A stretch of 49,291 nucleotides of DNA from a virus. The stretch's first letter is position 1. The number at the start of each line of letters is the position of its first letter. The notes under the pieces were generated by a model. The model was not told the DNA's origin. It worked only from the letters and a program-made list of their open reading frames with translations, and did no database searches. Location of the stretch: positions 1 to 49,291 of the IMG/VR virus record IMGVR_UViG_3300006924_000035; one strand, given 5' to 3'. Below are positions 12,483-39,533 of this stretch, piece after piece. The translations under genes were made by a program, and so were the position numbers.

Positions 12483-12843
12483 TATAATTGTTTACGACAA
12501 AGACGGTAATACTCAAGAAGTTTGGGCTAACGATATGGTCAAAGCAGAAGAAGTAAATTTTGAAGGCTGGCTCTGTGGCATTGGCTTAGAAAGTATTGAC
12601 ATAAAAAGCAATGGAGATATTTACAGAGGCACGTGCAGGATAGGAGGTCCTATCGGACACATCGATGATGAAGTTTGGAATTTGCCTACAGACTTTATTG
12701 AGTGTAATAAGAATAGCTGTACTTGTGTAGCTGATATTAAAAGTACTAGGTATAAAGACCAAGAAACAAGAAACAAATTAGAAAGTAAAGTTAAACAAGT
12801 AGTAATAGGAAAGGGTGGAGATGAGAGTTCAAATAATTTTTGA
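12475..12843 (+). CDS. Stand-alone auxiliary cysteine-domain protein (twitch/SPASM-like)
   Basis: 122 residues from ATG 12475 (TTG 12466 is an in-frame alternative). Cys34, 54, 77, 82 and 84 have spacings 20, 23, 5, 2, against 20, 22, 5, 2 in the N-terminal domain of the radical SAM protein at 10227, and the GW-x-CG, NG-x-I/V and C-x-C-x-A/S-DI contexts also match. It has no radical SAM core. The domain-less radical SAM protein at 11162 lies two genes upstream and could be its partner. The cluster-binding role is inferred. Confidence 0.65.
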   Translation: MSDIIVYDKDGNTQEVWANDMVKAEEVNFEGWLCGIGLESIDIKSNGDIYRGTCRIGGPIGHIDDEVWNLPTDFIECNKNSCTCVADIKSTRYKDQETRNKLESKVKQVVIGKGGDESSNNF

Positions 12844-14703: not shown

Positions 14704-14706
14704 ATA
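14699..14706 (+). promoter_or_regulatory. Late-promoter-like octamer AATAAATA, 5 bases before ATG
   Basis: AATAAATA is followed by TTAGT and then the ATG at 14712, with no Shine-Dalgarno site between. In T4 late promoters the octamer occupies about -13 to -6, so transcription would start at the A of the ATG. Identical spacing is seen at 16108 and at 26746 on the other strand. Confidence 0.5.
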
Positions 14707-14711
14707 TTAGT

Positions 14712-15404
14712 ATGTTAAAAAATATTATTAAAAATAGGTATAGTGCTAGAACATTTCTTGACATAGAAATTGAGCAAGATAAGATTGATTACATTTTAGA
14801 ATGTGCAACACATGCTCCTAGTAAACAAGGAATATATCCTTACAAGATTTTTGTGTTAGGTACTAGTGACAAAGCACAAGAAATAAAAGAGTGGTTATTC
14901 TGGGAAAACACCTGGTGTGTAAATGGACAACGTGCCATTCCAGAAGGAAAGGATAGCAATAATAAAAGATTTAATGGCCAATATAAAGCGCCGCTGGTGC
15001 TAATATATGTGGGATATCCTCCTAAATCTGTAGAAAATCATATATCTGCAGATTATATAAAAGACTTTTTAAAAAACTCTGCCGATAAAATTAATACTGA
15101 CGCAACTGTTAGTGCAAGTTTTGCAATGTTAGCCGCTGAAGAACAAGGGCTTAGAACTTGCTTTGGTAAATGCCACGATGAAAAATTAGTATCAGAAAAG
15201 TTAGGAATACCCTCGAAAGCAGTAATGGTAGTAGGTATAGGTTATGCAGAAGATTATGAAGGAGAGGACGGAATACTAAACCAAGAAGTTTACAAAGACG
15301 GTATCCTACAAGGACAGCAACCAAAAAATTTACCACAAACAACAAATATTCCAGATCATTACGATCGCCAAAGAAAGCCAAGCAACATTATGGTGGAAGT
15401 ATGA
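14712..15404 (+). CDS. Nitroreductase-family flavoprotein
   Basis: 230 residues. The N-terminus has NRYSARTFLD, the conserved R-x-S-x-R FMN-binding segment of nitroreductases, then ATHAPSKQGIYPYKIFVL, matching the A-P-S-x-x-N-x-Q-P-(W/Y) region. Further on, AMLAAEEQGLRTCFG and AVMVVGIGYAE match the dimer and FMN motifs. Members use FMN and NAD(P)H to reduce nitro groups, enones or imines, and some act in modified-peptide biosynthesis. It probably begins a late transcription unit, since AATAAATA lies just upstream and no ribosome site is seen. Substrate unknown. Confidence 0.82.
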   Translation: MLKNIIKNRYSARTFLDIEIEQDKIDYILECATHAPSKQGIYPYKIFVLGTSDKAQEIKEWLFWENTWCVNGQRAIPEGKDSNNKRFNGQYKAPLVLIYVGYPPKSVENHISADYIKDFLKNSADKINTDATVSASFAMLAAEEQGLRTCFGKCHDEKLVSEKLGIPSKAVMVVGIGYAEDYEGEDGILNQEVYKDGILQGQQPKNLPQTTNIPDHYDRQRKPSNIMVEV

Positions 15405-16102
15405 GAACACTTGAACATGTTAAAAGTATAGAAGAAAATAATTCTGATCCCTTTCAACTTTATAATTTTATCAGCAGAGTTGAAAACCAAGAACTTATTA
15501 AATTTTATGATAATACAGATAAAGAAATAAAAGCAACAGGACCTACAATAGTACGTCCTGACCTATCATTACCTGTATTTAAACAAATATTTAATAGAGT
15601 ACAAGAAACTATAGGTGAAGATGTACGTTTAGAATCAGCATTGATATTCAGTACTCCTTGGGCACATGTAATACATAATGACGACGATGTTAAAGGAAAT
15701 GCAAAGCCTTATAAAGCATTAACTATTCCTTTAGAATTATGGGGAACAGCAAAAGATACTGATATAAAACTAATGATGTTTGATCAGTATTATTATCATG
15801 GCGGCAAAAAATTTTACAATGGTGGCCCTGCCCCAAAAAAAATTGCAACCAATCTGCCTTTACTAGAATACAAAGATGTTAGTTACATTAATAATAAGGG
15901 TATACCTTATGATGTAAAGAAAAAATATCTTACACATTTACAAGATAACTGGCTAGAAGGATTATCAATCCATAGTTATTTTCCTTGGAAAATTAATAGT
16001 GCAATAATTTTTGACAGCACAAGATTACATAGTAGTAGTAATTTTAATGCTATAGGAGTTACTAAAAAACTAGCACTCAGTATCTTTACCTACCTACCAT
16101 AG
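15401..16102 (+). CDS. Putative 2OG/Fe(II)-dependent oxygenase
   Basis: 233 residues. WAHVIHNDDD supplies an H-x-D iron pair, and FDSTRLHSSSNF with TKKLALSIFTYL gives a distal His followed by a basic residue and a strand, the usual order of the double-stranded beta-helix oxygenases. The protein is short and divergent, so the call rests on this motif order. Such enzymes hydroxylate peptides, sugars or lipids using 2-oxoglutarate and oxygen. It overlaps the nitroreductase gene by 4 bases. Substrate unknown. Confidence 0.6.
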   Translation: MRTLEHVKSIEENNSDPFQLYNFISRVENQELIKFYDNTDKEIKATGPTIVRPDLSLPVFKQIFNRVQETIGEDVRLESALIFSTPWAHVIHNDDDVKGNAKPYKALTIPLELWGTAKDTDIKLMMFDQYYYHGGKKFYNGGPAPKKIATNLPLLEYKDVSYINNKGIPYDVKKKYLTHLQDNWLEGLSIHSYFPWKINSAIIFDSTRLHSSSNFNAIGVTKKLALSIFTYLP

Positions 16103-16107
16103 ATATA

Positions 16108-16115
16108 GATAAGTA
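16108..16115 (+). promoter_or_regulatory. Late-promoter-like octamer GATAAGTA, 5 bases before ATG
   Basis: GATAAGTA is followed by TTTTT and the ATG at 16121. No ribosome binding site lies between the octamer and the start. Spacing is identical to the sites at 14699 (+) and 26746 (-), which predicts a leaderless late transcript. Confidence 0.5.
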
Positions 16116-16120
16116 TTTTT

Positions 16121-16876
16121 ATGGTAGACTATAAGACTCACGACAAAAATGGTAACCCTTTAAATATTATAGATAATTCGCCTATTGAAGGTTATATAAG
16201 TCCTGCAAAAAGATGGGCTAATGAACCAGACTGGTTTGAACCTACGCAAGAAGATTTAAAATGTGAACTACAGTTATCTGCTTTAGATTTTTGGGAACCA
16301 TTAAAACAAAAAGTTAAAGAAAAAGAGTTCAGTTCTCAAATTGAACCTTACAATAATAAATGGATACCTTATTTGCGTAAAGAAGGTATTATGAATGATA
16401 GAGAAGGAATGTTGCTTTCAGGTCTCAACGGTGATACCTATACAGATAGTCTAAGCATGCCTGAAGCAATAAAACGTTCAGGGAAATATTTGTACGATAA
16501 GGACTTTAAATATCCAACAGAACTTTATAATAATTTAACATGCTTGCACCCTGTATTAGATATGTTTGGTCCTCTTGGCAGAACTGTTTTAATTAAAATG
16601 AACAAGGGATCTTTTTTTGTACCTCATAAAGATGATCCTTGGCTGGTTAGAGACTGTTTTAGGATTGCCGCTTTCTTTGGTAACACTCGCAACTTTGAAT
16701 GGGAAATGTGTGGTCAGAAAGTTGATATTGAGCCTGGAAGATTTTATTATATTGATACACGTAAAACTCATAGAACACATTCTTGGCAACATAGTAGTAT
16801 TCATTTAATTGTAAATATTCCAAAGACTTGGAAAAATGTTATGACACTTATAACAAATTTAGAAAGAGCTCCATGA
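16121..16876 (+). CDS. 2OG/Fe(II) oxygenase-like protein (Asp/Asn beta-hydroxylase-like)
   Basis: 251 residues. SFFVPHKDDPW gives the H-x-D pair in a strand. CFRIAAFFGN, VDIEPGRFYYIDTRKTHRTHSW and SIHLIVNI follow in the order expected of aspartyl/asparaginyl beta-hydroxylase-like folds, with His in KTHRTH as the distal iron ligand. The residue expected to bind the 2OG carboxylate is not an obvious Arg. Start by the ATG after a late-promoter-like site, with no Shine-Dalgarno. Substrate unknown. Confidence 0.65.
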   Translation: MVDYKTHDKNGNPLNIIDNSPIEGYISPAKRWANEPDWFEPTQEDLKCELQLSALDFWEPLKQKVKEKEFSSQIEPYNNKWIPYLRKEGIMNDREGMLLSGLNGDTYTDSLSMPEAIKRSGKYLYDKDFKYPTELYNNLTCLHPVLDMFGPLGRTVLIKMNKGSFFVPHKDDPWLVRDCFRIAAFFGNTRNFEWEMCGQKVDIEPGRFYYIDTRKTHRTHSWQHSSIHLIVNIPKTWKNVMTLITNLERAP

Positions 16877-17697
16877 AATTATTATGTGATGGATGGTGTG
16901 CCGACTACGATATCAAACTAAAAGGTATGCCCAAAGATGAATTACAAGAAGTTTTTAAAGACATATACAAATACCTTGTTCTAAATTTTCATAATCAAGA
17001 TTTAGACGAAGCAGACCTATTGCGTATTAGTGAAGTAGTAGGTAGTGTGCAGAAGCAAGATCCTAAAGACGCCCAAAGGGCTCACGGCGGTGGCGGTGAT
17101 GTGTGGGCAGGTGAAGGCATACTTAGAGTAGGCGGCGACGATTTGACAGGTAAGCCTAGTCTGTTTAGTCACAAGCATGATTTAGATTGGCATGCTAATC
17201 AACCTAGTAATCCTAAAAGAAAACATTTAATTTGGTTATATGCAGTAACTGGCACCGTTGGAAGTCGCACAAGTTGGTTGAATAATGCATGGTCATACGA
17301 AGACTTACCTGCTGACATAAAAGAGACTCTTGAAAATGTTCATGTTTATTGTGGTTATCAAGCAGGTAGATATAGCGATACTCCATTATTTAAAGACCAT
17401 ATACAGAGAGATAATCCTGTAAAACTTATTCAAAATTTTGGCGAACATAAAGGAATCTTTTTTCCTTTTTATCAAATATTTGAAGTTGTAGGATGGGATA
17501 AAAAAGAAAGCGAAGAACTTATTTCATATCTACAAAATCATATATTGAACGAAAAATATATGTATCACCATCATTGGAAAAACGGCGATCTCAATATAGC
17601 TGAACAAATTGTTACTATTCATAAAAGATGGCATTTTGAACAAATGGGTCAACGTATACTTTGGAGAGTAGCAAGTGGTCACGAAAATTTGCAGTGA
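16873..17697 (+). CDS. TauD/TfdA-like 2OG dioxygenase with atypical iron site
   Basis: 274 residues from ATG 16873, after AGAAAGAG and overlapping the previous stop as ATGA. DLDWHANQPS corresponds to the W-H-x-D strand of TauD-like enzymes, followed by a spaced LYAVTGTVGSRTSWLNN. HHHWKNGDLNIAEQIVTIHKRW matches the W-x-x-GDL-x(9)-H-x-R end of the family, with Arg in QRILWRV as the 2OG ligand. The carboxylate of the iron triad appears as Asn (H-A-N), which is unusual. Substrate unknown. Confidence 0.68.
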   Translation: MKLLCDGWCADYDIKLKGMPKDELQEVFKDIYKYLVLNFHNQDLDEADLLRISEVVGSVQKQDPKDAQRAHGGGGDVWAGEGILRVGGDDLTGKPSLFSHKHDLDWHANQPSNPKRKHLIWLYAVTGTVGSRTSWLNNAWSYEDLPADIKETLENVHVYCGYQAGRYSDTPLFKDHIQRDNPVKLIQNFGEHKGIFFPFYQIFEVVGWDKKESEELISYLQNHILNEKYMYHHHWKNGDLNIAEQIVTIHKRWHFEQMGQRILWRVASGHENLQ

Positions 17698-17701
17698 AAT
17701 A

Positions 17702-18436
17702 ATGGCTCTTAGTACTGCGGTACGAACTAACGTACTTGCGGATGTAACCCACGCTGTATCGGGCTTAAAATGCGATTTAGACGGTATATATCCGTACTCT
17801 ACAAGTATAGTTGATTGGCTTAAACCAGTTGTAGATCTATCGAATTTCCATGTGTATCCTATGAACGGTATTACACAAGGGCTAGATTGGTGGTACGATA
17901 AAGAGCGTAGAGCTGTAACAATGGAACGTGGAGACTATCAATGGATACATCCAAAAGCAGGAGTAAAACGTATTCATTATATTAGTGTGCCTAGTGCTAT
18001 TGACGGAAACTTTATAGACATACCCAGAGACACACCTACAGCAGTTGACCTTGCATATTTAGGAAGCACAGATATACATAAAATAGATATACCAAAAAAT
18101 GTAGAGTATGTGTTTTATAGTTTAAGTAAACCTTTTGGTGTACGTAATGTTCGCACAGGTTGGATTTTTACTCGCAATCTAGATACAAGATTAGATGCTA
18201 TTACCAATAGTGCTAAGTACTATAACTATTATGCAAATAGTGTTGCAGAAACAATCATAAACAAATTTGATATTGACTATGTATGGAATACTTTAAAAGA
18301 CAAGCAAATAGATATTTGTAATACATACGGATTCACACCAAGTGATAGTGTGTGGCTTGCAACAACAAACAATCCTGCATACGATAAATTTAAAAGAGGA
18401 GATGTAAATAGGTTATGCCTCGCACCGTGTTACTAG
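17702..18436 (+). CDS. Compact PLP-dependent aminotransferase-like protein
   Basis: 244 residues from ATG 17702 (GTG 17675 is an in-frame alternative). YVFYSLSKPFGVRNVRTGWIF closely fits the S-x-S-K-x(5-7)-R-x-GW motif of class I/II aminotransferases, where the Lys forms the PLP Schiff base. VYPMNGITQGLDWWY resembles the upstream region that holds the cofactor phosphate. At 244 residues it is much shorter than the usual 380-420, apparently missing most of the small domain. It may aminate an oxidised sugar or peptide intermediate, or act only as a partner. Its end overlaps the B12 radical SAM gene by 22 bases. Confidence 0.6.
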   Translation: MALSTAVRTNVLADVTHAVSGLKCDLDGIYPYSTSIVDWLKPVVDLSNFHVYPMNGITQGLDWWYDKERRAVTMERGDYQWIHPKAGVKRIHYISVPSAIDGNFIDIPRDTPTAVDLAYLGSTDIHKIDIPKNVEYVFYSLSKPFGVRNVRTGWIFTRNLDTRLDAITNSAKYYNYYANSVAETIINKFDIDYVWNTLKDKQIDICNTYGFTPSDSVWLATTNNPAYDKFKRGDVNRLCLAPCY

Positions 18437-19935
18437 GAACTATCTCAAGTGTATATCACGATTGGGTACCATACCCTGTAGGATGCCTCATCTCTCATTG
18501 TATGAAAAATCCTACTATAGCAAAAGACACAACTTTTTTAGAACCTTTGTATAAAAGCAAATGGGATAATGAAGATACACATGCAAAATTAAAACAAGCA
18601 GACATACTTGGACTTACATGTTATGTATGGAATCAAAATGCAAACGATGAAATTTCTCAGTTATTTAAAAAATATAATCCTAAAGGTGTAATTGTATACG
18701 GCGGTCCTAATGTACCAGAACAAAATTTACAAGAATTTAAACGTCCTTATGTAGATCATTATATGACCGGTCCAGGCGAGTTACAATGGGAAAAGTTTTT
18801 AGATCCTACTAGCAGTAGTGAGTATGCTATACCAACTCCTTATACAGATGGAATATTTGATGACTTACTAAAACGTGAAGATGATATTGCAGTAGCATTT
18901 GAAACCAACAGAGGATGTCCATATCATTGTGCATTTTGTGATTGGGGCGGAGTAAGTCGCAGTAAAATTACAAAACTAAAAGATGCCGCAGTAAAAGAAA
19001 CTATAGAGCATGTACTGAGCTTTGACAATGTAAAGCGTTTAGAAATACTAGATGCAAACTATGGCATATTTCCTAGAGATGTAGATTTTGTACAACACAT
19101 TGTTGATAATAAAAAGCGTGACGATATGATGCTTACTTTTGCTGGCTTTGCAAAAAATGGATCTCCATACTTGCCTGAGATCATGAATCTCACAATGGAT
19201 AATTTTAATGACAAAATGCGTAATGTAAAAATTAGTTTGCAAACATTATCGCCAGATGTACTAGATACAATTCAACGTAAGAATATTAGTACAGACAAAC
19301 TATTGCGTATAATGGATCAACTAAGAGATATCAAAGTAAATTCAGAACTTATTATAGGCTTGCCAGGAGAAACAGCAGACAGTTGGGCAGATACATTATT
19401 CAAACATCCAGAACTAGGTATTGATTTTGCAAGAAGTTATCCTTTATATGTTTTACCTAATACACCTATGGCAACAAATGAATATAAAGAAGAATACGGA
19501 ATAAAAACTAAAAAAATAATTTTGCCTAATAAAGAACAGTTTGAAATGATATATCAATGTAATAGTTATGATTTAGAAGAAATCACAAAAATATATCTTA
19601 CTTGGTGGTACTTTAACACATTCTATAATTTTGGCATTGATAAATCAGTCACAAAAGAAACAATGAAAACTTTTTTTAATAACTTAGACAGCATGCCTTA
19701 TGTTAGTTGTTGTGTTGAAGAAGTACGTATGGCATTACATAGAATATTTAAACCTGAGGACGAATTGCATCTAGAAGGATATGATTATAGTTTTTTACAT
19801 AAACAGTTAGGCAGAGGAAAAGAATTACTTTATTTCAAGCAAAATCAAAAACAGATATGTAAAGAACTAGGAATCAAGTTTAATATCAATAATGATGATA
19901 AAGAATTAGGGAGTGCATTTGCATATATAAAATGA
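18415..19935 (+). CDS. B12-binding-domain radical SAM protein
   Basis: 506 residues. Residues 1 to about 155 form a Rossmann-like cobalamin-binding domain (ADILGLTCYVWN, VIVYGGPNVPE, DHYMTGPGE). The core has NRGCPYHCAFCDW (Cys168, 172, 175), ILDANYGIF, ISLQTLSPDVL and ELIIGLPGET. This is the class B radical SAM layout, whose members include methyltransferases acting on unreactive carbons as well as ring-forming enzymes. Length is typical. Substrate unknown; its operon partners are an aminotransferase-like protein and several oxygenases. GTAAATA four bases before the ATG may be another late-type site. Confidence 0.87.
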   Translation: MPRTVLLGTISSVYHDWVPYPVGCLISHCMKNPTIAKDTTFLEPLYKSKWDNEDTHAKLKQADILGLTCYVWNQNANDEISQLFKKYNPKGVIVYGGPNVPEQNLQEFKRPYVDHYMTGPGELQWEKFLDPTSSSEYAIPTPYTDGIFDDLLKREDDIAVAFETNRGCPYHCAFCDWGGVSRSKITKLKDAAVKETIEHVLSFDNVKRLEILDANYGIFPRDVDFVQHIVDNKKRDDMMLTFAGFAKNGSPYLPEIMNLTMDNFNDKMRNVKISLQTLSPDVLDTIQRKNISTDKLLRIMDQLRDIKVNSELIIGLPGETADSWADTLFKHPELGIDFARSYPLYVLPNTPMATNEYKEEYGIKTKKIILPNKEQFEMIYQCNSYDLEEITKIYLTWWYFNTFYNFGIDKSVTKETMKTFFNNLDSMPYVSCCVEEVRMALHRIFKPEDELHLEGYDYSFLHKQLGRGKELLYFKQNQKQICKELGIKFNINNDDKELGSAFAYIK

Positions 19936-20597
19936 AAGATATAATTTTTACACCATTAGCAATTCCACCTATTCCGAATAAACAAAAAATATTAGATAGG
20001 TTCAATGCACCTGATTTTTATATTTGGTGGGATGAAGAAACATTATTAGGTGAAAAGGAAAATAATAATCCTTTAGGTAATCCGCAACAGTGGACAGATA
20101 AAGCAAAAGAAAATTATCCTGAGCTTATAGAATGGATCGAAACTTATATTCCTTGTGATGATTTTTACTATATTCGTATTGCAAGAGCTAAACATTCAAT
20201 ACCTCCACACATAGACGGTAATGCTGTTAAACCAACACATAAACATCATCTTGCTATTATGCCTGAAACATTGGAATATAATATGGCGCATGAACCTATT
20301 GGTTATCGTTTTGTTGTTGCAGGTAGCAAGGATAAAATGTATATGTGCAAAGACTATGATTATACAAAGGACATGTCTTGGCAACAAAAGCATAGATGTA
20401 TTGTGCCTGAAGAAACAGATGCGTTCTTAATACGCAACCAAGACCAAGCACATGGAGTTGAAGAAGATACTGAAGATAGACTAATAGGATTTATACTTGG
20501 TAAAGTTAATGCCAGGAAGCATTGGGATCTAATAGAAAAAAGCGTAAGTAAGTATAGTGATAAAGTTATAAGGAAACAAGATGTATTCAATGCATGA
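19932..20597 (+). CDS. Putative 2OG/Fe(II)-dependent oxygenase
   Basis: 221 residues. IPPHIDGNAV provides the H-x-D pair, and QAHGVEEDTEDRLIGFIL provides the distal His and, ten residues later, an Arg that could hold 2OG, followed by a final strand. Between them is a GYRFVVAG segment like the domain's central strands. Motif order and length fit small beta-helix hydroxylases. It overlaps the B12 radical SAM gene by 4 bases and the next methyltransferase-like gene by 17. Substrate unknown. Confidence 0.65.
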   Translation: MKDIIFTPLAIPPIPNKQKILDRFNAPDFYIWWDEETLLGEKENNNPLGNPQQWTDKAKENYPELIEWIETYIPCDDFYYIRIARAKHSIPPHIDGNAVKPTHKHHLAIMPETLEYNMAHEPIGYRFVVAGSKDKMYMCKDYDYTKDMSWQQKHRCIVPEETDAFLIRNQDQAHGVEEDTEDRLIGFILGKVNARKHWDLIEKSVSKYSDKVIRKQDVFNA

Positions 20598-21195
20598 TGG
20601 CGCAAATATTAGTGTACACCAACAAGTAGCCAAACGACTACAACCAAAAACGTGTGTAGAGATCGGAACTTATTATGGTGGCATCACATACAAGTTAAGT
20701 AAGATGCTCCCTGATAGTCATTTCTTTGCTGTGCAAAGTTATCACGATCATAAACTTAATCACATGCCCAATACTGACAGAGGCGAATATAGTATTGGTC
20801 AAGCAAGAGAAGATAAAAGTGAAGGGCTTGATAAGAACCTTAAAGAACAAGATTGGAAGCGTAGTGTTAAGAGACATTTTCCAGAAGAGTATCACGACTA
20901 TTTTGATTTTAATCTACTAGCAAAAACATTTGAAGACTGTAACAATGTAAGTATTATATTAGATACTAGTCCTTTTAAGTATGATTGGAAAATTGGATTT
21001 GATCTAGCAATATTTGATGTATCACCGTTGTTAGAAGAAAACGTAAAACAATTTAATTATTGGTGCAAGTACGGCAATCATCATGCTAACATACTTATGG
21101 GTGCATATAATCATCAACAAGAATTTTATGATTATGTAGACAAAAGATATAAAGCAGAAAAAATAGGAAATGATTATGTTCTCGTGTGCATATGA
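20581..21195 (+). CDS. SAM-dependent methyltransferase-like protein
   Basis: 204 residues. The start follows AAGGAAACAAG. QPKTCVEIGTYYGGITYKLSKML is a motif I strand-loop-helix (E-I-G-x-Y-x-G), and FDLAIFDVSPLLEENVKQFNYW resembles motif IV and the following helix, as in class I methyltransferases of the family 24 type used in polysaccharide and antibiotic pathways. LILD-like VSIILDTSPF lies between. The ribose-binding acidic residue is not clear. Overlaps neighbours on both sides. Substrate unknown. Confidence 0.6.
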   Translation: MYSMHDGANISVHQQVAKRLQPKTCVEIGTYYGGITYKLSKMLPDSHFFAVQSYHDHKLNHMPNTDRGEYSIGQAREDKSEGLDKNLKEQDWKRSVKRHFPEEYHDYFDFNLLAKTFEDCNNVSIILDTSPFKYDWKIGFDLAIFDVSPLLEENVKQFNYWCKYGNHHANILMGAYNHQQEFYDYVDKRYKAEKIGNDYVLVCI

Positions 21196-21841
21196 ACTTA
21201 ACATAGACATCACACAAGTACGTGAAGAACTACAACATCTAAATAATCCTAAATACAAGTATGCAGGCTACGATGATATGTGCTTTTACGTATCAGACGA
21301 AACAGTAAAACAACAAAGTTGTGATGCTGTTGTAAGTTTCAAAGAAAAATTTAATAACGGTTTTGTAGATGGCATACGTTTTCTTAACATGTATCCAGAA
21401 CAAAAATATTTGCCCCACGTTGATTCCAATGAACAAGGATTTCATAAAGACATACCTATGGATGTACAACATCCTGGCAATGTAAATATTTTGTTAAGTA
21501 AACCAGTTGGTGATACCACAGTATGGTATATAGATCCTGACCTTAGGAAATTATGGCCTTGGGCATTTAGTAACAACGGAGATCTATTTCCTGATAATGT
21601 TAATAATTATATTACAAACGAAACCATGGGGCAAGATAGATCAACACTTCAACAAGTAGATAAATTTAAACTAACTGACAAAGCAACATTGTTTAATACG
21701 TCTGCACATCATACTATAATAAGTGAAGATGTAAATGAACCACGCTCTAGTGCATGTTTTATATTTTGGCCATACAATAGTTGGCAAGGTATAGTTGAAG
21801 CAGTAAGAGCAAAGAGATTATTGCATGACCGCATGGAATAA
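21176..21841 (+). CDS. Putative 2OG/Fe(II)-dependent oxygenase
   Basis: 221 residues from ATG 21176, after AGGA; ATG 21170 is an in-frame alternative. KYLPHVDSNEQG gives H-x-D, and TSAHHTIISEDVNEPRSSACFIFW gives the distal His and an Arg followed by a strand. VNILLSKPVGDTTVWY forms the middle strands. A WPWAF and a long loop are inserted between. The call rests on motif order. Overlaps the methyltransferase gene by 20 bases and the sulfotransferase gene by 17. Substrate unknown. Confidence 0.65.
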   Translation: MFSCAYELNIDITQVREELQHLNNPKYKYAGYDDMCFYVSDETVKQQSCDAVVSFKEKFNNGFVDGIRFLNMYPEQKYLPHVDSNEQGFHKDIPMDVQHPGNVNILLSKPVGDTTVWYIDPDLRKLWPWAFSNNGDLFPDNVNNYITNETMGQDRSTLQQVDKFKLTDKATLFNTSAHHTIISEDVNEPRSSACFIFWPYNSWQGIVEAVRAKRLLHDRME

Positions 21842-22352
21842 AGAAAAAATCTTTATACATATTCCTAAGACAGGCGGAATAAGTATGACGTCTACAATGG
21901 GCAAAGTAAATATTAAACCACATGCACCTATATGTGATCCAACACTTCCTAAATTACCTAGTTTTACAGTAATAAGAAATCCATATGAACGTGCAGTTAG
22001 TTGGTGGAAGTATTCTAAACAATACGGAATTGATGTTGGATTTTTAGAATATTTGTATGTTTATTTTGACAAGCCATGGCCTAATTGGCGTAAACAATTT
22101 GAAGAATATACAACTACAACAGCAGATTTCTTTTTAGGAGAATTTAAACCTAGTATTCCTATGATGGATTATATAACAATTAATCATAAAATTGCAGTAG
22201 ATGAAATTATAAGATACGAAGATATGCAAATCCAAGAACGACAAAATGTGTCTAAGTTCAAAATAAATATTAATGAGGTACTCACACCAGAAGCAAAAAA
22301 CGTTATAGAACACTATTATCGTGTTGATTTGGAAAGTTTTGATTATGAATAA
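21825..22352 (+). CDS. Sulfotransferase-family protein
   Basis: 175 residues. IFIHIPKTGGISM (about 9-21) is the PAPS 5'-phosphosulfate loop of carbohydrate-type sulfotransferases, and FTVIRNPYERAVSWW matches the 3'-phosphate binding R-(D/N)-P-x-x-R-x-x-S motif. RYEDMQ follows as in family members. It is short, but both PAPS motifs are intact. Members transfer sulfate from PAPS to sugars or, less often, proteins or lipids. In this island it suggests sulfation of a glycan or fibre. The host must supply PAPS, since no PAPS genes are seen. Confidence 0.82.
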   Translation: MTAWNKEKIFIHIPKTGGISMTSTMGKVNIKPHAPICDPTLPKLPSFTVIRNPYERAVSWWKYSKQYGIDVGFLEYLYVYFDKPWPNWRKQFEEYTTTTADFFLGEFKPSIPMMDYITINHKIAVDEIIRYEDMQIQERQNVSKFKININEVLTPEAKNVIEHYYRVDLESFDYE

Positions 22353-22968
22353 AAAGCATTTACCTAGTATATACAACTATAATTTAAATATCGACTTAAA
22401 AAAATTACAAAACGACTGTGATAAATTAGCAGAAAAATTTGTTGATGTACGCACAGCAAATCCTATGCTGTGTATGAATCATGAAGATTTAGTTAAGAAT
22501 GTATACGACAACTTTGAACAGATAAACCTTACTACACCTAGTGAGATTTTACCGCACACAGCCAGCATTAAGGAGCGTCTAAGACGCCGAGAAGAACACC
22601 TTTATAATGTTCCTACTGACGATTATCCTGGTAGTTACTTTGAGCAAGTTATTACACAACTTAAAGCACCTGCAAGCCGTATAAGAATTACAAAACTTGC
22701 ACCAGGTAAAAACATACCATTTCATGTAGACTATGATGTAAGTTATGCAGTACGTTGTATTGTACCTATCTACGGAGATAACCAAGTTATAAATTTATTT
22801 AAAAGAGATGGCAAATTAGAAGCATATAATTTAGAAAATGGAAATGCTTACTTTCTAAATATAGGATATCCACATGCAGTTGTTAACATGAGTAGCAAGC
22901 CACGTATTGCTTTAATGTTTAGTTTAGATGGGACAGACGATATTAGTCATCTTTCCAACGGTTCCTAA
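22345..22968 (+). CDS. Asp/Asn beta-hydroxylase-like 2OG oxygenase
   Basis: 207 residues from ATG 22345 (GGAAAG upstream; the longer frame from 22321 would lie inside the sulfotransferase gene). ASRIRITKLAPGKNIPFHVDYD is the strand leading to H-x-D; VRCIVPIYG follows; AYNLENGNAYFLNIGYPHAVVNMSS gives the distal His and KPRIALMFSL the 2OG-binding Arg. This is the typical beta-hydroxylase domain order. It is the last + strand gene; its 3' end overlaps the 3' end of the opposing gene by 26 bases. Substrate unknown. Confidence 0.75.
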   Translation: MNKKHLPSIYNYNLNIDLKKLQNDCDKLAEKFVDVRTANPMLCMNHEDLVKNVYDNFEQINLTTPSEILPHTASIKERLRRREEHLYNVPTDDYPGSYFEQVITQLKAPASRIRITKLAPGKNIPFHVDYDVSYAVRCIVPIYGDNQVINLFKRDGKLEAYNLENGNAYFLNIGYPHAVVNMSSKPRIALMFSLDGTDDISHLSNGS

Positions 22969-23461
22969 CTTCAGATGTTATAAATGGCCAACCACTAAGA
23001 TTAAGTCTTTGGCCACTACATGGTTCGACCCAGTGATCAAATCCTGTACGCATTATTACAAGCCTATTACGCTTTGGAAGTATACGCATATCTTCTGTAC
23101 ATAATTCGCCATCAGTCTCATCTGTAAGATAAAGCATCCATACCCAGTCTCCATAAACTTCTGGATCTTCTTTGTGCTTGCCTATGTGACTGCTAGGGGT
23201 AAACTTTTTGGCAAACAGTTGCATAGGTTCTAGATCCTGTGTAGGTATACTTGTGCCAATGTGTTCGCCTATTTCGCTCAACAACATTAGTCTATGGGGA
23301 CTAGTTCTAATGTTATTTTTTATCATTTGCCATTCGTATTCTGTATATTCGCCTACATGTGACCCTGTTTCACTGTCTAGTTGTAACAGTTCTCCTTTGC
23401 AAAGTTCATCTAGTTCTTGTAGATAATCCTCTTCAAAAATATCGTCAACTACTATAACCAT
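22943..23461 (-). CDS. Putative 2OG/Fe(II)-dependent oxygenase (prolyl hydroxylase-like)
   Basis: 172 residues from ATG 23461, after GCGGAAGAAA. MQLFAKKFTPSSHIGKHKEDPE gives His-x-Glu in place of His-x-Asp; WVWMLYLTDETDGELCTED and LPKRNRLVIMRTGFDHWVEPC follow the prolyl-4-hydroxylase-like order, with the distal His and then Arg in GQRLNLSGW. The N-terminus (VIVVDDIFEEDYLQEL) is the usual helix entry of this fold. It is the last gene of the - strand operon and overlaps its upstream neighbour by 17 bases. Substrate unknown. Confidence 0.7.
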   Translation of the reverse strand: MVIVVDDIFEEDYLQELDELCKGELLQLDSETGSHVGEYTEYEWQMIKNNIRTSPHRLMLLSEIGEHIGTSIPTQDLEPMQLFAKKFTPSSHIGKHKEDPEVYGDWVWMLYLTDETDGELCTEDMRILPKRNRLVIMRTGFDHWVEPCSGQRLNLSGWPFITSEVRNRWKDD

Positions 23462-24197
23462 TTTCTTCCGCCCATTCTTTCCAAGTTGTGTTAGTATCCT
23501 CAATCCATTGATTGTTATGTTGTTTCCCTACACTATGAGGACCATTTATACTAGCCACGGCATGCAGTCTTACACTACGACAAGGAACTACAGCATGAGC
23601 TTTGCTTGTATTCAAAATAAAAGACTCTCCAGGCTTACAAAATACAGGACCGTCAGCAGTTTCTATGCTACTTGTAATTCCTTCACCGTCATTTAATAAA
23701 ACATGATGATATCTAAATCCTGTATCACCGTCAGTGTGCCAAATAAATCTGCAATCGTGTTCCATATAGCTAAACCAAAAATTGCTACGCAAATTAGGAA
23801 TAACTGCGTCGATTTCATTACAATGTTTTTTTCCTAATTCTTTAAAGTCTTTATGAACAAAACAATAAATGTTTAAATGCTGATCCGGTTCTATTCTAGC
23901 ATTTTCATGTCTTAGTTTAACATAATACAAAACTCCTGAATCATAGTGATATTCATCCACATAATCTAACCAGTTCTCTTCATCCTTCATATCAAATCCT
24001 CTAAGTCCGTTGTATATGTCACGTTTATCCATAAGTTTTTCTGACCGACGCATATACACATTAAGATAAGTTTGATCACCAAAATTAAGATCTGGCCAAA
24101 TTTCTTCAGTCATATCATAAAATAACTTTGTAAGTTCTTTAGTGTTGTTTACAGTGTCACAAAGAACAAATGCTTCTTTCATATGTTGATCAAACAT
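23445..24197 (-). CDS. Putative 2OG/Fe(II)-dependent oxygenase
   Basis: 250 residues from ATG 24197, eight bases after GAGGAG; the ATG at 24182 is in frame but has no ribosome site. CRFIWHTDGDTGFRYHHVLLND gives H-x-D; ADGPVFCKPGESFILNTSKAHAVVPC gives the distal His and SVRLHAVASI the 2OG-binding Arg. This is a full beta-helix motif series. About 100 N-terminal residues are of no recognised family. The start overlaps the end of the preceding gene by 19 bases. Substrate unknown. Confidence 0.72.
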   Translation of the reverse strand: MFDQHMKEAFVLCDTVNNTKELTKLFYDMTEEIWPDLNFGDQTYLNVYMRRSEKLMDKRDIYNGLRGFDMKDEENWLDYVDEYHYDSGVLYYVKLRHENARIEPDQHLNIYCFVHKDFKELGKKHCNEIDAVIPNLRSNFWFSYMEHDCRFIWHTDGDTGFRYHHVLLNDGEGITSSIETADGPVFCKPGESFILNTSKAHAVVPCRSVRLHAVASINGPHSVGKQHNNQWIEDTNTTWKEWAEENGYSS

Positions 24198-24640
24198 TCT
24201 ACTAACTCCTCTATCGGTTGCTCAAAGCAAATTTGAAAATTATATCTAGGGTATTCATTATTATTAATATAGTGAGGTAACTGTGTGTTAAACAATATAG
24301 GTTTTTCATGTGTAACAGTTGGACCGTCTATAAAATGGCAAGGTGCATAATCTTTATGCCAAAACAATGGAACAATTAATACAGTGTTCCTCTTCCATTT
24401 AGTATTATCTACATGTGCAACTACCTTTGCATTTGCAGGTTGATGTACAAACATTGTATAACAATTATAGTTAAATCTTTTAAAATAAGGTAAATCTAGG
24501 TCCCAACACAAGTTACCATCTTTTTTACCGCTTATGGTATCGTAACCAAGAAAATTTGCTTCAGGACTCTTACATAAATTTTCTAAAAAATTTACATCTT
24601 CTGAAGAAATAAGATCTGTTGTTTCATAAAACGGAATCAT
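24179..24640 (-). CDS. Small 2OG/Fe(II) oxygenase-like protein
   Basis: 153 residues from ATG 24640, overlapping the upstream stop as ATGA; the longer frame to 24706 would run 70 bases into the upstream gene. AKVVAHVDNTKWKRNTVLIVPL gives H-x-D and a strand; PILFNTQLPHYINNNEYPRYNFQICF gives the distal His and Arg. This is close to the minimal size for the fold. One of four oxygenase-like genes in a row in this operon. Substrate unknown. Confidence 0.65.
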   Translation of the reverse strand: MIPFYETTDLISSEDVNFLENLCKSPEANFLGYDTISGKKDGNLCWDLDLPYFKRFNYNCYTMFVHQPANAKVVAHVDNTKWKRNTVLIVPLFWHKDYAPCHFIDGPTVTHEKPILFNTQLPHYINNNEYPRYNFQICFEQPIEELVECLINI

Positions 24641-25302
24641 GTATATATTTGTCTTTTCATTTCTATTATTGCATCCATACACATCTCTATATTCATTACA
24701 AGCCATATACTGTCGCTAGAGCCCGGATTAAATAACGAGTGCGTTTTTAAAGTATTTAAGAAATAAATTCCACCTTCTATCCAATTAAGTACATTGTGAT
24801 TTTTATAGTCGCCATGCATCCAATAAAAATTTGGAGGGTTTACATTTTTTATAGGTACAACTAATCTAAACGTTTCGGGAGACCGGCTCATTGCTTCATC
24901 AACATGAGGAGGAAAGTATCCACCAGGTGGAATTTTAATAAACTGTGTTCTTCCTAAAAAGTTCTTCCAAGGAGTTAATATTCTTTGTAATTCCTGACTT
25001 GAATTATATAAAGGTGTAGGAATTTTAAAATCTAATTCGCTATATAGTGTCACCTTCGACTTTAAAGCCTCTTCCTTCTGTTGGTCAGATTTTCTTAAAC
25101 TGCCTTTACTTTGATTAAATTTTCCGTCTAACGATGTAACTGCTAAAGAATATCTTGGAATATGAGGTTTATTAGGATTATATTGAACCCATTCTGTATT
25201 ATATTGTTCTATACTGGTTAGTATTTGTTTTGTACTAACTGAAGTTGTTAATTTAACAAAGTCACCGTTACTGATTAATGCACTAAATATTTCCCAACTC
25301 AT
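24637..25302 (-). CDS. Putative 2OG/Fe(II)-dependent oxygenase
   Basis: 221 residues. FIKIPPGGYFPPHVDEAMSR is the typical lead-in strand and H-x-D site; ETFRLVVPIKN and NWIEGGIYFLNTLKTHSLFNPGS follow with the distal His, then SIWLVMNIEM as final strand. The position usually occupied by Arg is Ser or absent. The layout is like Asp/Asn beta-hydroxylase-type proteins. It overlaps the SDR-like gene upstream by 20 bases and the next gene by 4. Substrate unknown. Confidence 0.68.
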   Translation of the reverse strand: MSWEIFSALISNGDFVKLTTSVSTKQILTSIEQYNTEWVQYNPNKPHIPRYSLAVTSLDGKFNQSKGSLRKSDQQKEEALKSKVTLYSELDFKIPTPLYNSSQELQRILTPWKNFLGRTQFIKIPPGGYFPPHVDEAMSRSPETFRLVVPIKNVNPPNFYWMHGDYKNHNVLNWIEGGIYFLNTLKTHSLFNPGSSDSIWLVMNIEMCMDAIIEMKRQIYT

Positions 25303-25750
25303 TTGTTACCTCCTTTACTGCATCTTGTATAGTTATATCTGTTTCTAATTCTGGGTTATTGTCTAATATAGGATTTTCTTTTGTAAATCCCCATGTAAGA
25401 TAAGGTTGCTTAAATTTTTTACTCATATGTTCTAGTGTAATTTTATTGTCCTTTTTTATAATGTCCCAATGATCTGTAACTTTTGCTTCTGTGATTTTAC
25501 TACCAATGTTTATACATTTAATTTTGTTACGATACGCTCTTATACTAATATTAACTTGAGCATTTCCAATATCTGCACAATTTATCATACAATCCAGCTT
25601 ATCTTCAAATATTTTCTCCACATCAAAATTTAAGTCATATCCTGTTGCTCTACTATAACCTTTAATACTGTGTCCTAGCTCTTTGCACTCATTAGCAATA
25701 TGTTTGCCAAAGCCGCTTGTATGACCAGTTATGCCAATCGTAAGACCCAT
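25283..25750 (-). CDS. Small SDR-like NAD(P)-binding protein
   Basis: 155 residues from ATG 25750, six bases after a full AGGAGG. LTIGITGHTSGFGKHIANEC is the T-G-x-x-x-G-x-G nucleotide-binding turn of short-chain dehydrogenases. LDCMINCADIGNAQ resembles the N-A-G strand. A clear Y-x-x-x-K catalytic pair is missing (TLEHMSKKF occupies about that place), and the protein is shorter than the usual 230-260. It may be a degenerate or minimal reductase. It is placed between an acyltransferase-like gene and oxygenases, downstream of a desaturase. Confidence 0.6.
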   Translation of the reverse strand: MGLTIGITGHTSGFGKHIANECKELGHSIKGYSRATGYDLNFDVEKIFEDKLDCMINCADIGNAQVNISIRAYRNKIKCINIGSKITEAKVTDHWDIIKKDNKITLEHMSKKFKQPYLTWGFTKENPILDNNPELETDITIQDAVKEVTNELGNI

Positions 25751-26184
25751 TGCAGTCCTCCTAAAGGAATTTCTTCTTGGGTAATTTTCCAATTATAAAA
25801 ACTATGTTCTTGAAACCATTCAAGCAGTTTAGGATTTTCTTCCCTGCTTACCCATATATCTTTATAGCCCATATCAAGTGCCATCTTTGTACTAAAACCT
25901 AATGTAGCATTTCCTCTTTGCAGATCATCTTTCATTGTACCCCAATCATAATTTCGATCACGAGTATGACGGCTCATAATTCTAATGCCGCCGTTGTATT
26001 CTGGTCTTGCAATACCAGCACTATAATAAATTAAATGAGGATCCCAACCCATGCGGGCAAACTTTGTATGTTCAAACAAAGGCCACTTGCTATAGTTATC
26101 TGCATGTTTGTGTCCTTGTGTTTTTTCAAACAGTTCTTTAATGTCCTCTATGTGAGGTTCAATCTCTTCTAAACGCCATTTCAT
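25729..26184 (-). CDS. GNAT-like N-acyltransferase domain protein
   Basis: 151 residues. YYSAGIARPEYNGGIRIMSRHTRDR and RGNATLGFSTKMALDMGYKDIWVSREENPKLLEWF look like the strands and the acyl-CoA-facing helix of GNAT proteins. I recall similar proteins in T4-like cyanophages annotated as N-acetyltransferases, often near a desaturase. A clear R/Q-x-x-G-x-G/A loop is lacking, so the call is tentative. Its start overlaps the desaturase end by 26 bases, and its end overlaps the SDR-like gene by 22, so translation is coupled. Confidence 0.5.
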   Translation of the reverse strand: MKWRLEEIEPHIEDIKELFEKTQGHKHADNYSKWPLFEHTKFARMGWDPHLIYYSAGIARPEYNGGIRIMSRHTRDRNYDWGTMKDDLQRGNATLGFSTKMALDMGYKDIWVSREENPKLLEWFQEHSFYNWKITQEEIPLGGLQWVLRLA

Positions 26185-26740
26185 GATGATCTTTATGGTT
26201 TCCTTCGAACGGTGCGATTAAATTTACCCAAATATTATTAATCGGTCCTTTACTGTCATGCCCCCAAAAGTTCAATGCGCCAAAGCCGAAGTAGGCTAGT
26301 GCGTAAATTATTGCTAATACTACAAGTGCGTTGAATCCAAATACCAGTGTTAGTAGTATTGCGTTTGTAATGTAAATTAAATTTCTATGTTTATGAAAGA
26401 AAACTACTCTAGGATTTGTAATTATATCCTTTAAGAATTTACGTGGTATTCTCTCTACTCTCCATAGACTAAACAATATTGAATACCAAGGTTGATATTT
26501 TGCACTATGCGGATCTTTTGGTGTATCTGCATATACATGGTGCATACGATGTACACCTACCCAACCTAGCGGACTTCTGTTACCACAAAGCAATCCGCAG
26601 TATAGCATTACTATTTCTTGCCAAGGCTTTGCAGAAAATTCATTGTGAGAAAAATATCTGTGATATCCATACGTAATGCCAATAGTGACAATTAGCATAT
26701 AGGCTAGATAAGAGAATAGAATAATATATAGTATTTGCAT
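26159..26740 (-). CDS. Fatty acid desaturase (acyl-CoA or acyl-lipid delta-9 type)
   Basis: 193 residues. All three di-iron histidine boxes of membrane desaturases are present: HRYFSH (about 27-32), HRMHH (about 64-68) and NHKDHH near residue 182. Hydrophobic stretches at the N-terminus and at about 121-155 fit membrane helices. At 193 residues it is shorter than the bacterial 270-330 but is complete at the boxes. It would introduce a double bond into acyl chains of the host membrane. It is the first gene of the operon and is preceded by a late-type octamer without ribosome site. Confidence 0.87.
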   Translation of the reverse strand: MQILYIILFSYLAYMLIVTIGITYGYHRYFSHNEFSAKPWQEIVMLYCGLLCGNRSPLGWVGVHRMHHVYADTPKDPHSAKYQPWYSILFSLWRVERIPRKFLKDIITNPRVVFFHKHRNLIYITNAILLTLVFGFNALVVLAIIYALAYFGFGALNFWGHDSKGPINNIWVNLIAPFEGNHKDHHEMAFRRD

Positions 26741-26773: not shown

Positions 26774-27799
26774 TTAAATAAGGTTAGCCCAAGAACCGTT
26801 TTCATAGCCTTGGAATTTATTATCTGAAGTATTATAGATAACCATACCATTTGCGGCTGTAAGTGCATCACGTTGTGTAGTTGTTAATGAACCAAATTGT
26901 ACAAAGCCAGTTGCTTTAGCATTACCTAAAACTTCTAATGCTTCAGTTGGCTCAGAAAAGTCTGAGTTTGCAGGTTCAATTTTTACTTTTAATCCACCAA
27001 ATACCTGATGAGAATTATAAAGTGATACGCCAGTCAATCCAGTATCATTATGACTCATGTAAGTATTATTAACACGAGTTTGCATAACAAATTTTTGTTG
27101 TCCGTCGACTCTAGTAACTAATGTGCTTGCAGGATCTGATCCTGGAGGTGCACCTACTCCCTGAGTGTCAAAGCCAAATTCAAGTCTTGCTGTTGTACCA
27201 ATATTGCCTGTTCCGTTAACAAACAGTCCGCTTGTACCTACAGTTACTTTATCTGTATCTACGTTACCTGTAATTTTGCTGTTATTACTATCAATCAATA
27301 CAGTTGAATCGTCTGCAAAAACAGAGCCTACCATATCACCTACAACTGAACCAAAGTGTGTACCTGTTGTATTACCAACTACGTTACCTGTTACAGACCC
27401 AGTTACATCTCCTGTTAAGTTACCAACTACGTTAGTTGCTGTTACTGAACTAGATACTACTGGTCCTACAATTTTTCCGTTTATAGCATCAACTAGGAGC
27501 GTTGAGTCATCACCATAAATGTTACCACGTATATCAATTTGTGGATTGTCAGTTGCGGCCCATTGTGTGCCGTTGTATACAAGGATTTGATCGTTCTGTG
27601 CGGCTAACGCTTGTACGTTACCTAAATCTTCTAAATTCTGTGTTGATACAGATACTGGAGTACCACCTGTTGTGGCTCCGTCTCCAACAAATACTTCTTT
27701 GCTGTCTGTTGTGTAAACAAGTTCACCTTCAGCTGGTACATAACCTGGACTGGTTTGTAGTGCTGTTTTAGTGCCTCGTTTGATTCGTAAAGTACCCAT
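26774..27799 (-). CDS. Tail fibre-like protein with N-terminal attachment module and Gly/Val repeats
   Basis: 341 residues. The N-terminus (LRIKRGTKTAL, then GELVYTTDSKEVFVGDG) is the module found at the start of many phage fibre and tropism-determinant proteins. Residues about 110-170 contain short repeats of the type G-x-(V/L)-(V/T)-G-(D/N/S) that would form a beta-helix. The C-terminal QRDALTAANGMVIYNTSDNKFQGYENGSW is a common short fibre end. AGGAG and a TATAAATA late promoter precede it. Distinct from the fibre at the left edge. Receptor unknown. Confidence 0.8.
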   Translation of the reverse strand: MGTLRIKRGTKTALQTSPGYVPAEGELVYTTDSKEVFVGDGATTGGTPVSVSTQNLEDLGNVQALAAQNDQILVYNGTQWAATDNPQIDIRGNIYGDDSTLLVDAINGKIVGPVVSSSVTATNVVGNLTGDVTGSVTGNVVGNTTGTHFGSVVGDMVGSVFADDSTVLIDSNNSKITGNVDTDKVTVGTSGLFVNGTGNIGTTARLEFGFDTQGVGAPPGSDPASTLVTRVDGQQKFVMQTRVNNTYMSHNDTGLTGVSLYNSHQVFGGLKVKIEPANSDFSEPTEALEVLGNAKATGFVQFGSLTTTQRDALTAANGMVIYNTSDNKFQGYENGSWANLI

Positions 27800-30704: not shown

Positions 30705-30731
30705 ATTGTGTACTCCTTGTGTGCCATTTTA

Positions 30732-30816: not shown

Positions 30817-30828
30817 CTACCGTGCCTA

Positions 30829-38071: not shown

Positions 38072-38417
38072 AAGTTCCTTTCCTGTAGTTTCCTTGTTTA
38101 GGTATTACGTGTCGTACGCCGCCGCGTGGATCATCCATATCGCCTTTGCGCCTAGGAATTAAGTGAACGTGTGGATAGTTAACAGTTTGTCCTGCCGCTT
38201 CTCCAACGTTTTGTCCGATGTTGAACGCATCACAGTATCCACGTTCAACCCAATCATAGCCCCATTTATATGCGGCCTCCATACATTTTGTTAGTCCTCT
38301 CCAGTCTTCTTGTTTAGGCACAAAAAGAATGTGTCCTTCAGTAACCGGATAGCCATCTTTGTATACTGTAAAGTCTTTTGACTCAATTAGTACATCTGTC
38401 CAAGGTTTAGAATCCAT
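38049..38417 (-). CDS. HIT-family hydrolase-like protein
   Basis: 122 residues. EGHILFVPKQEDWRGL and GQNVGEAAGQTVNYPHVHLIPRRKGD are typical HIT motifs. The histidine triad reads Y-P-H-V-H-L-I (His83 and His85), so the catalytic and one flanking His are kept and the first is Tyr. Members hydrolyse dinucleoside polyphosphates or nucleoside phosphoramidates. In the phage it may clear Ap4A-type nucleotides. DDPRGGVRHVIPKQGNY at the end is as in cyanophage homologues I recall. Confidence 0.8.
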   Translation of the reverse strand: MDSKPWTDVLIESKDFTVYKDGYPVTEGHILFVPKQEDWRGLTKCMEAAYKWGYDWVERGYCDAFNIGQNVGEAAGQTVNYPHVHLIPRRKGDMDDPRGGVRHVIPKQGNYRKGTYVETAND

Positions 38418-38988
38418 AATTAAATGCCACCATTATACGTTCTTTATCTGTAAGTTGTTGTTCAACTTTATGATGCAAATGACTTGGAAAGATAATTAAA
38501 CTTCCTGTCATTGCCGCACAAGTTACATTAGGAGAGTTTGCTTCATTTAGTTCTGAAACATTTACTCTCGGCCAGTTAGCTTTCATATTAGGATTAACAA
38601 GTGTTAGTCCTGGATGATCTTGATCTGCTTGAATATAGTATACTCCACTCCATGTGTCTGGAAGATGATTATGTTCTTCGTGGTAAGTGTACTTACGATT
38701 AATACTAAACCAACTGCTCTTAAGTGAAGGCGTATGTTGTAGTTTAGTTTCTTTATGACACTCTTTTACACTTGCATCAATAAAGTTTTTTAAATCTTCA
38801 AACAACGGATGTTCTAAAATACTTTCACTGCCGTATGATGTATATCCGTTAGCAGTATATCTTATAGGAGATTTATCTGTTTTTTCTTTTGCTAAAAGCT
38901 CTTTAACTACAGACTTTTGTAGCTCTTGAGCTTTGTCGTATACAGCTCTAAATACTTGTGTTGGAAATATAAACTGCTTCTCAATCAT
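38407..38988 (-). CDS. 2OG/Fe(II) oxygenase of the phage type (PF13759-like)
   Basis: 193 residues from ATG 38988, seven bases after GGAG and overlapping the upstream stop (TAATG). YTYHEEHNHLPDTWSGVYYIQ and TGSLIIFPSHLHHKVEQQLTDKERIMVAFNY match the 2OG-FeII oxygenase family common in T4-like cyanophages, with H-x-H at the first iron site, a distal His and an Arg for 2OG. FPTQVFRA at the start is also usual. Unlike the oxygenases of the island it lies among nucleotide-metabolism genes. Substrate unknown. Confidence 0.82.
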   Translation of the reverse strand: MIEKQFIFPTQVFRAVYDKAQELQKSVVKELLAKEKTDKSPIRYTANGYTSYGSESILEHPLFEDLKNFIDASVKECHKETKLQHTPSLKSSWFSINRKYTYHEEHNHLPDTWSGVYYIQADQDHPGLTLVNPNMKANWPRVNVSELNEANSPNVTCAAMTGSLIIFPSHLHHKVEQQLTDKERIMVAFNYGF

Positions 38989-39533
38989 TAATATTCTCCA
39001 ACGTGTTCCCAAGGATAAACTAACCAAACATCTTCTTCTGCTTTATTTACTTCGTGGCAACTATAGGATATTGTACTATTGAAATCACTTGCTAAATTAT
39101 CGGTTAGTGTAGCAAAGCGAACATTGTTACCAAACACATTATTCCATTTAGGATCATCAGGCAAACACCCTTGTTTCCAGTCTTGCATAATCCAATTAAA
39201 CGTAGCACCAGTATCGTTAATATCATCTACAATAAGAATTTTCTTTTCTAATGGCCCTGCTGTTACTTTTGTACCATCGTTGTATCCATATGCATCTTCT
39301 GCCATCCATAACATACTATCGCCAGTCTTACCTGACTCTCCATCACGTAAACTTACTTTAAGTGCTTCACAACGTATACCTGTGATGTTACTAATAATAG
39401 TAGCAGGTACATTACCACCACGTGTAATACCTACAATGTAATCAGGCTTCCAATTGTCAGCGTACATTTGATTTACAATACTAACGCACATACGTTCTAC
39501 GTCTTGCCAGTTGTAATAGTGTTTTTTAATCAT
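38988..39533 (-). CDS. Phosphoribosyltransferase-family protein
   Basis: 181 residues from ATG 39533 (in-frame ATGs at 39542, 39545 and 39551 are alternatives). YIVGITRGGNVPATIIS and KKILIVDDINDTGATFNWI form the type I phosphoribosyltransferase fold; the latter is the PRPP-binding acidic pair and loop. Similar to xanthine/hypoxanthine-type salvage enzymes, with an altered base-binding hood. It may salvage purines or act as a regulator. Overlaps its neighbours by 8 bases and by one base (TAATG). Confidence 0.8.
   Translation of the reverse strand: MIKKHYYNWQDVERMCVSIVNQMYADNWKPDYIVGITRGGNVPATIISNITGIRCEALKVSLRDGESGKTGDSMLWMAEDAYGYNDGTKVTAGPLEKKILIVDDINDTGATFNWIMQDWKQGCLPDDPKWNNVFGNNVRFATLTDNLASDFNSTISYSCHEVNKAEEDVWLVYPWEHVGEY

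Follow-up and report, generated by a model that had tools for sequence, protein, structure and literature searches.

The locus described here raises the question of what a virus would gain from ten different oxygenases encoded side by side. The window, that is, the whole stretch of DNA analysed, was the 49,291-base IMG/VR virus record IMGVR_UViG_3300006924_000035, in which an initial annotation, made from the letters alone, had placed ten divergent 2-oxoglutarate (2OG)/Fe(II)-oxygenase-like genes, arranged as two converging operons and ending at nt 24640. All ten open reading frames, designated c1 to c10, were found at the starts given; the end at 24640 cuts off the tenth gene (24637-25302), and the array spans nt 15401-25302. 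Six of the oxygenase genes are on the + strand (15401-22968), interleaved with four other genes, and four are on the - strand (22943-25302), the two convergent runs overlapping tail to tail by 26 bp. All ten almost certainly have the 2OG/Fe(II)-oxygenase fold, the main grounds for this being the ligands conserved in IMG/VR relatives, comparisons of profiles, and AlphaFold models of two members. The products predicted were:

c1, 15401..16102, + strand: 2OG-oxygenase-like; not in a Pfam/PHROG family; ligands H92, D94, and H210; K223 at the position of the 2OG anchor
c2, 16121..16876, + strand: AspH-like oxygenase; H169, D171, H224 or H220 region; distal Arg missing
c3, 16873..17697, + strand: TauD-like; H107-x-N109, H250, R261; PF02668
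c4, 19932..20597, + strand: 2OG-oxygenase-like; no family; H93, D95, H174, R183
c5, 21176..21841, + strand: 2OG-oxygenase-like; no family; H81, D83, H179, R190
c6, 22345..22968, + strand: aspartyl/asparaginyl beta-hydroxylase-like; H127, D129, H177, R187; PF05118
c7, 22943..23503, - strand: 2OG-Fe(II) oxygenase; H110, E112, H157, R166, the ligands invariant; PF13640, phrog_61
c8, 23445..24197, - strand: AspH-fold 2OG oxygenase as predicted by its model; no sequence family; H154, D156, H201, R210
c9, 24179..24706, - strand: 2OG-oxygenase-like; no family; H98, D100, H145, R154
c10, 24637..25302, - strand: AspH-like; H133, D135, H188; no distal Arg

The annotation had read H-x-D/E followed by a distal His in nine of the products. 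This pattern was found in all nine and is invariant across their relatives, the motif by itself being at chance level: a loose form (H-x-D/E, a His 33-129 residues on, then an Arg/Lys 9-14 further) was present in 46% of shuffled candidate proteins and in 19 of the 61 other window proteins. Motif counting as proof of oxygenases was thus rejected, the frequency being no higher than chance, and since the motif alone was uninformative, relatives were gathered from IMG/VR and the invariance of the ligands was examined. Except in c3, the H-x-D/E...H iron ligands were invariant columns in every array family, including those of c1 (n=6 sequences, 39-60% identity), c4 (n=11), and c9 (n=10); in c5 (n=18, down to 21% identity), H81, D83, H179, and R190 made up four of the nine invariant columns. 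The later Arg, said to be present in most, corresponds to a distal Arg/Lys conserved in seven of the nine H-x-D/E members (c1, where it is Lys, and c4-c9) and missing from c2 and c10, while c3 has R261 at the distal anchor. The combination of invariant H-x-D/E, distal His, and Arg/Lys was found for c1 and c4-c9 (7/10 array families). Among all window genes having four homologues or more, no non-oxygenase family showed it.

Pfam matches were obtained for c3 (PF02668, E 2.9e-25, 90.1 bits versus a cut-off of 27), c6 (PF05118, E 2.9e-6), and c7 (PF13640, E 1.3e-5, 26.5 bits versus a cut-off of 27; phrog_61, 1.6e-4); that of c10 was at E 0.12, and no Pfam/PHROG oxygenase match was found for c1, c2, c4, c5, c8, and c9. 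The products of c2, c6, and c10 are detectable paralogues (c2 versus c10, 30%, E 1.6e-12), and tandem c5 copies are present in relatives, so that the view of the array as something other than simple recent duplication holds broadly, with these exceptions. The joint profile of c2, c6, and c10 (alignment A6) matched the solved structures of a beta-hydroxylase (7v4f, 2e-4) and L-proline cis-4-hydroxylase (4p7w, 1e-3). The same PDB profile search with alignments A1-A4 and A7 gave no match, and the weak cellulose synthase matches that were all A5 returned were taken as chance. In hhalign comparisons with A6, c8 reached 93%, c5 56%, and c9 46%, with the ligands superposed, versus at most 2.3% for five control families; c4 reached 16% over 35 columns, in the H-x-D region only, and a scan for distant relatives with the c4 alignment recovered the same lineage only. 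Comparison of c1 with the other array families by hhalign gave nothing, so that the assignment of c1 depends on its model and on the conservation of its ligands.

AlphaFold models were made of c1 and c8, both lacking a sequence family, and both matched 2OG oxygenases; for these two members the structure-prediction check that the annotation had proposed, in which absence of the beta-helix core from most products would count against it, thus came out in favour of the oxygenase reading. The c8 model (pLDDT 84.6, pTM 0.85) resembled AspH (Foldseek E 1.9e-7; Z 11.9, root-mean-square deviation (rmsd) 3.3 over 157 residues). For the c1 model (pLDDT 63, pTM 0.64), the 50 Foldseek matches listed were 2OG oxygenases only (HygX, E 1.9e-5), ALKBH structures included, and the viral prolyl hydroxylase vCPH was superposed with Z 12.7 and rmsd 4.0 over 157 residues. 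Middling Z values are commonplace; here the match lists consist of one superfamily. A double-stranded beta-helix is thus supported by the models for c1 and c8, by family or PDB-profile matches for c2, c6, c7, and c10, and by profile comparison only for c5 and c9, whereas c4, for which the invariant ligands alone argue, is the member with the least certain fold. The evidence for an oxygenase is strong for six members (c2, c3, c6, c7, c8, and c10) and good for three (c1, c5, and c9); that for c4 is the weakest.

The TauD-like motif called at 16873 proved right as to family, c3 being a member of PF02668, and wrong as to the iron site, in which the H-x-D...H triad is replaced by a non-canonical one. 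Its H107-x-N109 aligns with the H-x-D of the TauD/TfdA structure 5bke, and H-x-N was invariant among nine aligned c3 sequences. A wider scan, with search patterns that left out the Asn, gathered 80 loci from IMG/VR; H-x-N was present in 88 of 88 open frames matching the c3 family profile, in addition to c3 of the window, a count that overstates independent events because many of these frames are on near-identical marine contigs. Identities within the clade reach down to about 24%, the distal His and Arg are kept in all 85 frames with C-terminal coverage, and Mosig_00075 of phage Mosig EXVC030M also has H-x-N. Since H-x-N was present in all homologues read, c3 is not called a canonical TauD-type iron enzyme; inactivity of the clade is likewise not to be assumed, because human AspH, an established 2OG oxygenase, has an unusual iron site (PMC13168262). 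No cellular homologues of the clade were found in 289 genomes of one phylum, and the PF02668 control, run on 59 genomes, gave one partial match. The H-x-N clade is a ready test case for a working 2-His-1-Asn site.

An eleventh oxygenase, which the annotation had placed at 38407, was borne out:

c11, 38407..39027, - strand: 2OG-Fe(II) oxygenase outside the array; PF13759, E 3.2e-18; phrog_81, 4.3e-38

Both c7 (22943-23503) and c11 (38407-39027) match phrog_274, labelled 'DNA endonuclease V', a label that may be a misannotation and that is also carried by Mosig_00058, which is situated within a series of 2OG genes.

The array is interspersed with, and followed by, genes for possible partner enzymes and a fibre protein:

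17675..18436, + strand: small partner resembling pyridoxal phosphate (PLP) aminotransferases; 43% to Mosig_00079 'putative aminotransferase'; weak PDB match to a PLP decarboxylase, E 0.024
18415..19935, + strand: B12-binding radical S-adenosylmethionine (SAM) protein, KedN5-like C-methyltransferase; PF04055, E 2.2e-11; NF033712, E 1.6e-47, under the curated cut-off of that model
20581..21195, + strand: weakly methyltransferase-like partner; PF02390, E 0.047, under cut-off; order conserved
21825..22352, + strand: sulfotransferase-like partner; PF03567, E 8.3e-4, slightly under cut-off; some relatives have a c5 copy in its place
25283..25792, - strand: short-chain dehydrogenase-like partner; PF01370, E 0.0067, under cut-off; order conserved
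25729..26184, - strand: small conserved partner; 58-100% identity; no family match; GNAT-like by eye only
26159..26740, - strand: fatty-acid-desaturase-like membrane diiron enzyme; PF00487, E 4e-10; 35% to the Mosig FA_desaturase gene
26774..27799, - strand: tail-fibre-like protein adjoining the array, with Mtd N-terminal domain; PF18454, E 8.4e-11

About a dozen IMG/VR contigs share the gene order, and one of them, IMGVR_UViG_3300025070_002761, is almost identical to the window. On the + strand the conserved order is TauD-like, aminotransferase-like, B12-radical-SAM, c4, methyltransferase-like, c5, a c5 copy or the sulfotransferase-like gene, and c6; the convergent order is c7, c8, c9, c10, dehydrogenase-like, small conserved gene, desaturase-like, and fibre. 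Complete arrays hold 10-12 oxygenases by profile count, and the radical-SAM section upstream of the array differs between relatives. Ratios of nonsynonymous to synonymous substitution (dN/dS) were 0.03-0.27 for the testable array oxygenases (c2 and c10 were too diverged), indicating purifying selection, of which only the direction is safe because dS was often above 1.

The array is situated between tail/baseplate/fibre genes and the Mtd-type fibre gene, and in a 99-kb relative, portal, baseplate, gp46/47-like, and fibre genes lie on its far side; this relative also has a 4,997-aa open frame (4549-19539) after a baseplate wedge gene. The family B DNA polymerase was nearest to those of rhizobial jumbo phages (44-49%). 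A search for gp23 in the relatives was empty and uninformative, as its control also matched nowhere.

Other genes of the record include about eight radical SAM genes (5403-14703, 18415-19935, 35402-36427), seven of them within or directly upstream of the array, where the upstream set varies among relatives. Candidates of 7-deazaguanine type are located at 35402-36989, 11850-12482, and 38988-39551; QueE-like (phrog_2076, 1.8e-51), GTP cyclohydrolase/FolE-like (phrog_2197, 3.8e-43), QueC-like (PF06508, 3.6e-7), and phosphoribosyltransferase genes are present, making 7-deazaguanine chemistry possible. At 29418-31950, a gene for a DUF2201 metallopeptidase/VWA protein (PF13203, 3.5e-42) stands beside that for a MoxR-like AAA ATPase, with 70-93% in relatives, and four glycosyltransferase-looking genes with DTD/DGD-type motifs are found at 2351-3962, 4483-5403, and 6740-7429. 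A contig (1-17639) of a Puniceicoccaceae metagenome-assembled genome looks like phage DNA: it carries several 2OG genes, a desaturase-like gene, and a B12-radical-SAM gene with 38% to that at 18415; SufC- and SufB/D-like genes, recognized by eye, could supply Fe-S clusters.

As to function, the explanation that accounts best for these observations, with a probability of roughly 0.42, is that a T4-related marine phage encodes, within its host-recognition island, a pathway for decorating a surface glycan or a small molecule, with the array products as its tailoring hydroxylases. Together with aminotransferase-, B12-radical-SAM methyltransferase-, methyltransferase-, sulfotransferase-, dehydrogenase-, and desaturase-like partners, the oxygenases would act as substrate-specific hydroxylases, their target being a small molecule or else a sugar/amino-acyl group; the product would end on a glycan at the surface of the infected host (or the virion), and the changed surface would alter phage recognition. 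Divergence among the members would then reflect different substrates or positions, not gene dosage. This reading is suggested by the partner genes and by the nearest solved relatives of c2/c6/c10, which are small-molecule hydroxylases acting in a nucleoside-antibiotic pathway and on free proline. It is further supported by the conserved syntenic set, purifying selection, the island position, the similar gene mix of Mosig, and the conservation of the core gene c4 (65-97% identity across relatives) while the tail fibres differ (31-71%). A more specific version, in which the block is a phage-owned, hydroxylase-rich pathway for one tailored amino-acyl/sugar decoration and the H-x-N clade performs non-standard iron chemistry or is a non-oxygenase, is put forward only tentatively.

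Several points weigh against a tailoring pathway. AspH, PHD, and P4H folds modify proteins too; the contigs are fragments; and the glycosyltransferase look of the genes at 2351, 3168, 4483, and 6740 is one of motif only, no Pfam glycosyltransferase having been found among them. The array could also consist of unrelated genes in a common exchange hot spot. The last view, that a hot spot collects and exchanges metabolic genes sharing no common pathway, draws on the sharply different identity levels of neighbours within one contig and on the variable radical-SAM section upstream, but it is rather unlikely given the order and content of the core block, kept under purifying selection in about a dozen contigs.

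Equally doubtful is modification of the virion itself, in which the oxygenases would hydroxylate tail-fibre or other virion proteins encoded nearby and tune receptor binding. The array adjoins fibre genes, and as judged from the models, the fold of c1 appears closest to prolyl hydroxylases, including viral collagen P4H, and that of c8 to AspH, a protein hydroxylase. However, collagen-like repeats were absent from the window and the fetched relative loci, and the identity of most members was uncoupled from that of the adjacent fibre (small sample, n 5-9), as in contig 018428_4722 (c4 94%, c5 87%, fibre 31%), although a few genes nearest the fibre do track its identity, with a correlation of 0.95 (n 9) for the desaturase-like gene. 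Fibre proteins, which the annotation had suggested as substrates, are not favoured. Less probable still is AlkB/TET-like modification or repair of phage or host DNA/RNA: some phage 2OG enzymes act on nucleic acid, FolE-, QueE-, and QueC-like genes occur in the same record, and ALKBH structures are among the c1 matches, yet the array lies within the fibre island, away from replication genes, and c8 and the c2/c6/c10 group match amino-acid hydroxylases best. It is very improbable that the enzymes matter as 2OG consumers affecting nitrogen signalling, as proposed for cyanomyophages (Sullivan 2010, PMC3037559), since ten divergent families with their own conserved residues and orthologues fit substrate specificity better than dosage.

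The locus bears on a wider problem, the role of the 2OG oxygenases that are numerous among marine phage metabolic genes. In contrast to scattered single genes, a compact syntenic set with likely partner enzymes is a defined group to express and assay together. Profile-based virome counts of oxygenases are probably too low, because five of the families found here lack a Pfam/PHROG oxygenase match.

Similar gene sets are known from other marine phages. The large variable host-recognition cluster that pelagimyophages carry next to VrlC contains radical SAM and lipopolysaccharide-type genes (Zaragoza-Solas 2020, PMC7029224), and a large variable island beside baseplate/fibre genes is likewise seen in the virus of the window. 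The island of Mosig EXVC030M shares radical SAM, AspH-like, TauD-like, desaturase, nitroreductase, and aminotransferase genes on opposing strands; its region between VrlC and the fibres resembles the gene mix of the window and includes an ArnB-like aminotransferase and a carbamoyltransferase. Besides the aminotransferase-like partner, similarity to Mosig was observed for c6 (69%, Mosig_00072), c10 (34%, Mosig_00081 'Asp_Arg_Hydrox'), and the TauD-like protein (25%), while c1, c4, c5, c8, and c9 matched none of 50,697 phage records in tblastn. The 2OG, AspH-like, PhyH, or TauD genes annotated in positions 1-130000 of Mosig number 14, only three of them in the comparable stretch, compared with ten in one array here. 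Cyanophage S-SCSM1 is similar in having many mutually divergent 2OG genes (24 2OG-Fe(II) oxygenase genes, PMC9602691) in one marine T4-like phage, but these belong to pfam13640, 13661, 13759, and 05721, whereas 6/10 genes here have no Pfam match and all ten are in one 10-kb block; cyanomyophages have up to five 2OG genes, plus phytanoyl-CoA-type genes (PMC3037559). With 14 in Mosig and 24 in S-SCSM1, a phage with eleven oxygenases is not exceptional, and the annotation erred, as regards marine T4-like phages, in giving one to a few as the normal number per phage. Relatives of c6, c2, and c10, and of c8 by fold, are AspH (PF05118) and the bacterial beta-hydroxylase 7v4f; the array members differ in having H-x-D as the first ligand motif throughout and no TPR domain. 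TauD/TfdA proteins (PF02668; 5bke, CarC 1nx4) belong to the same sequence family as c3 over the full length, with H-x-D in place of the invariant H-x-N of the phage clade. What is distinctive here is the dense conserved order, the five families (c1, c4, c5, c8, and c9) outside the Pfam/PHROG oxygenase profiles, and the H-x-N clade.

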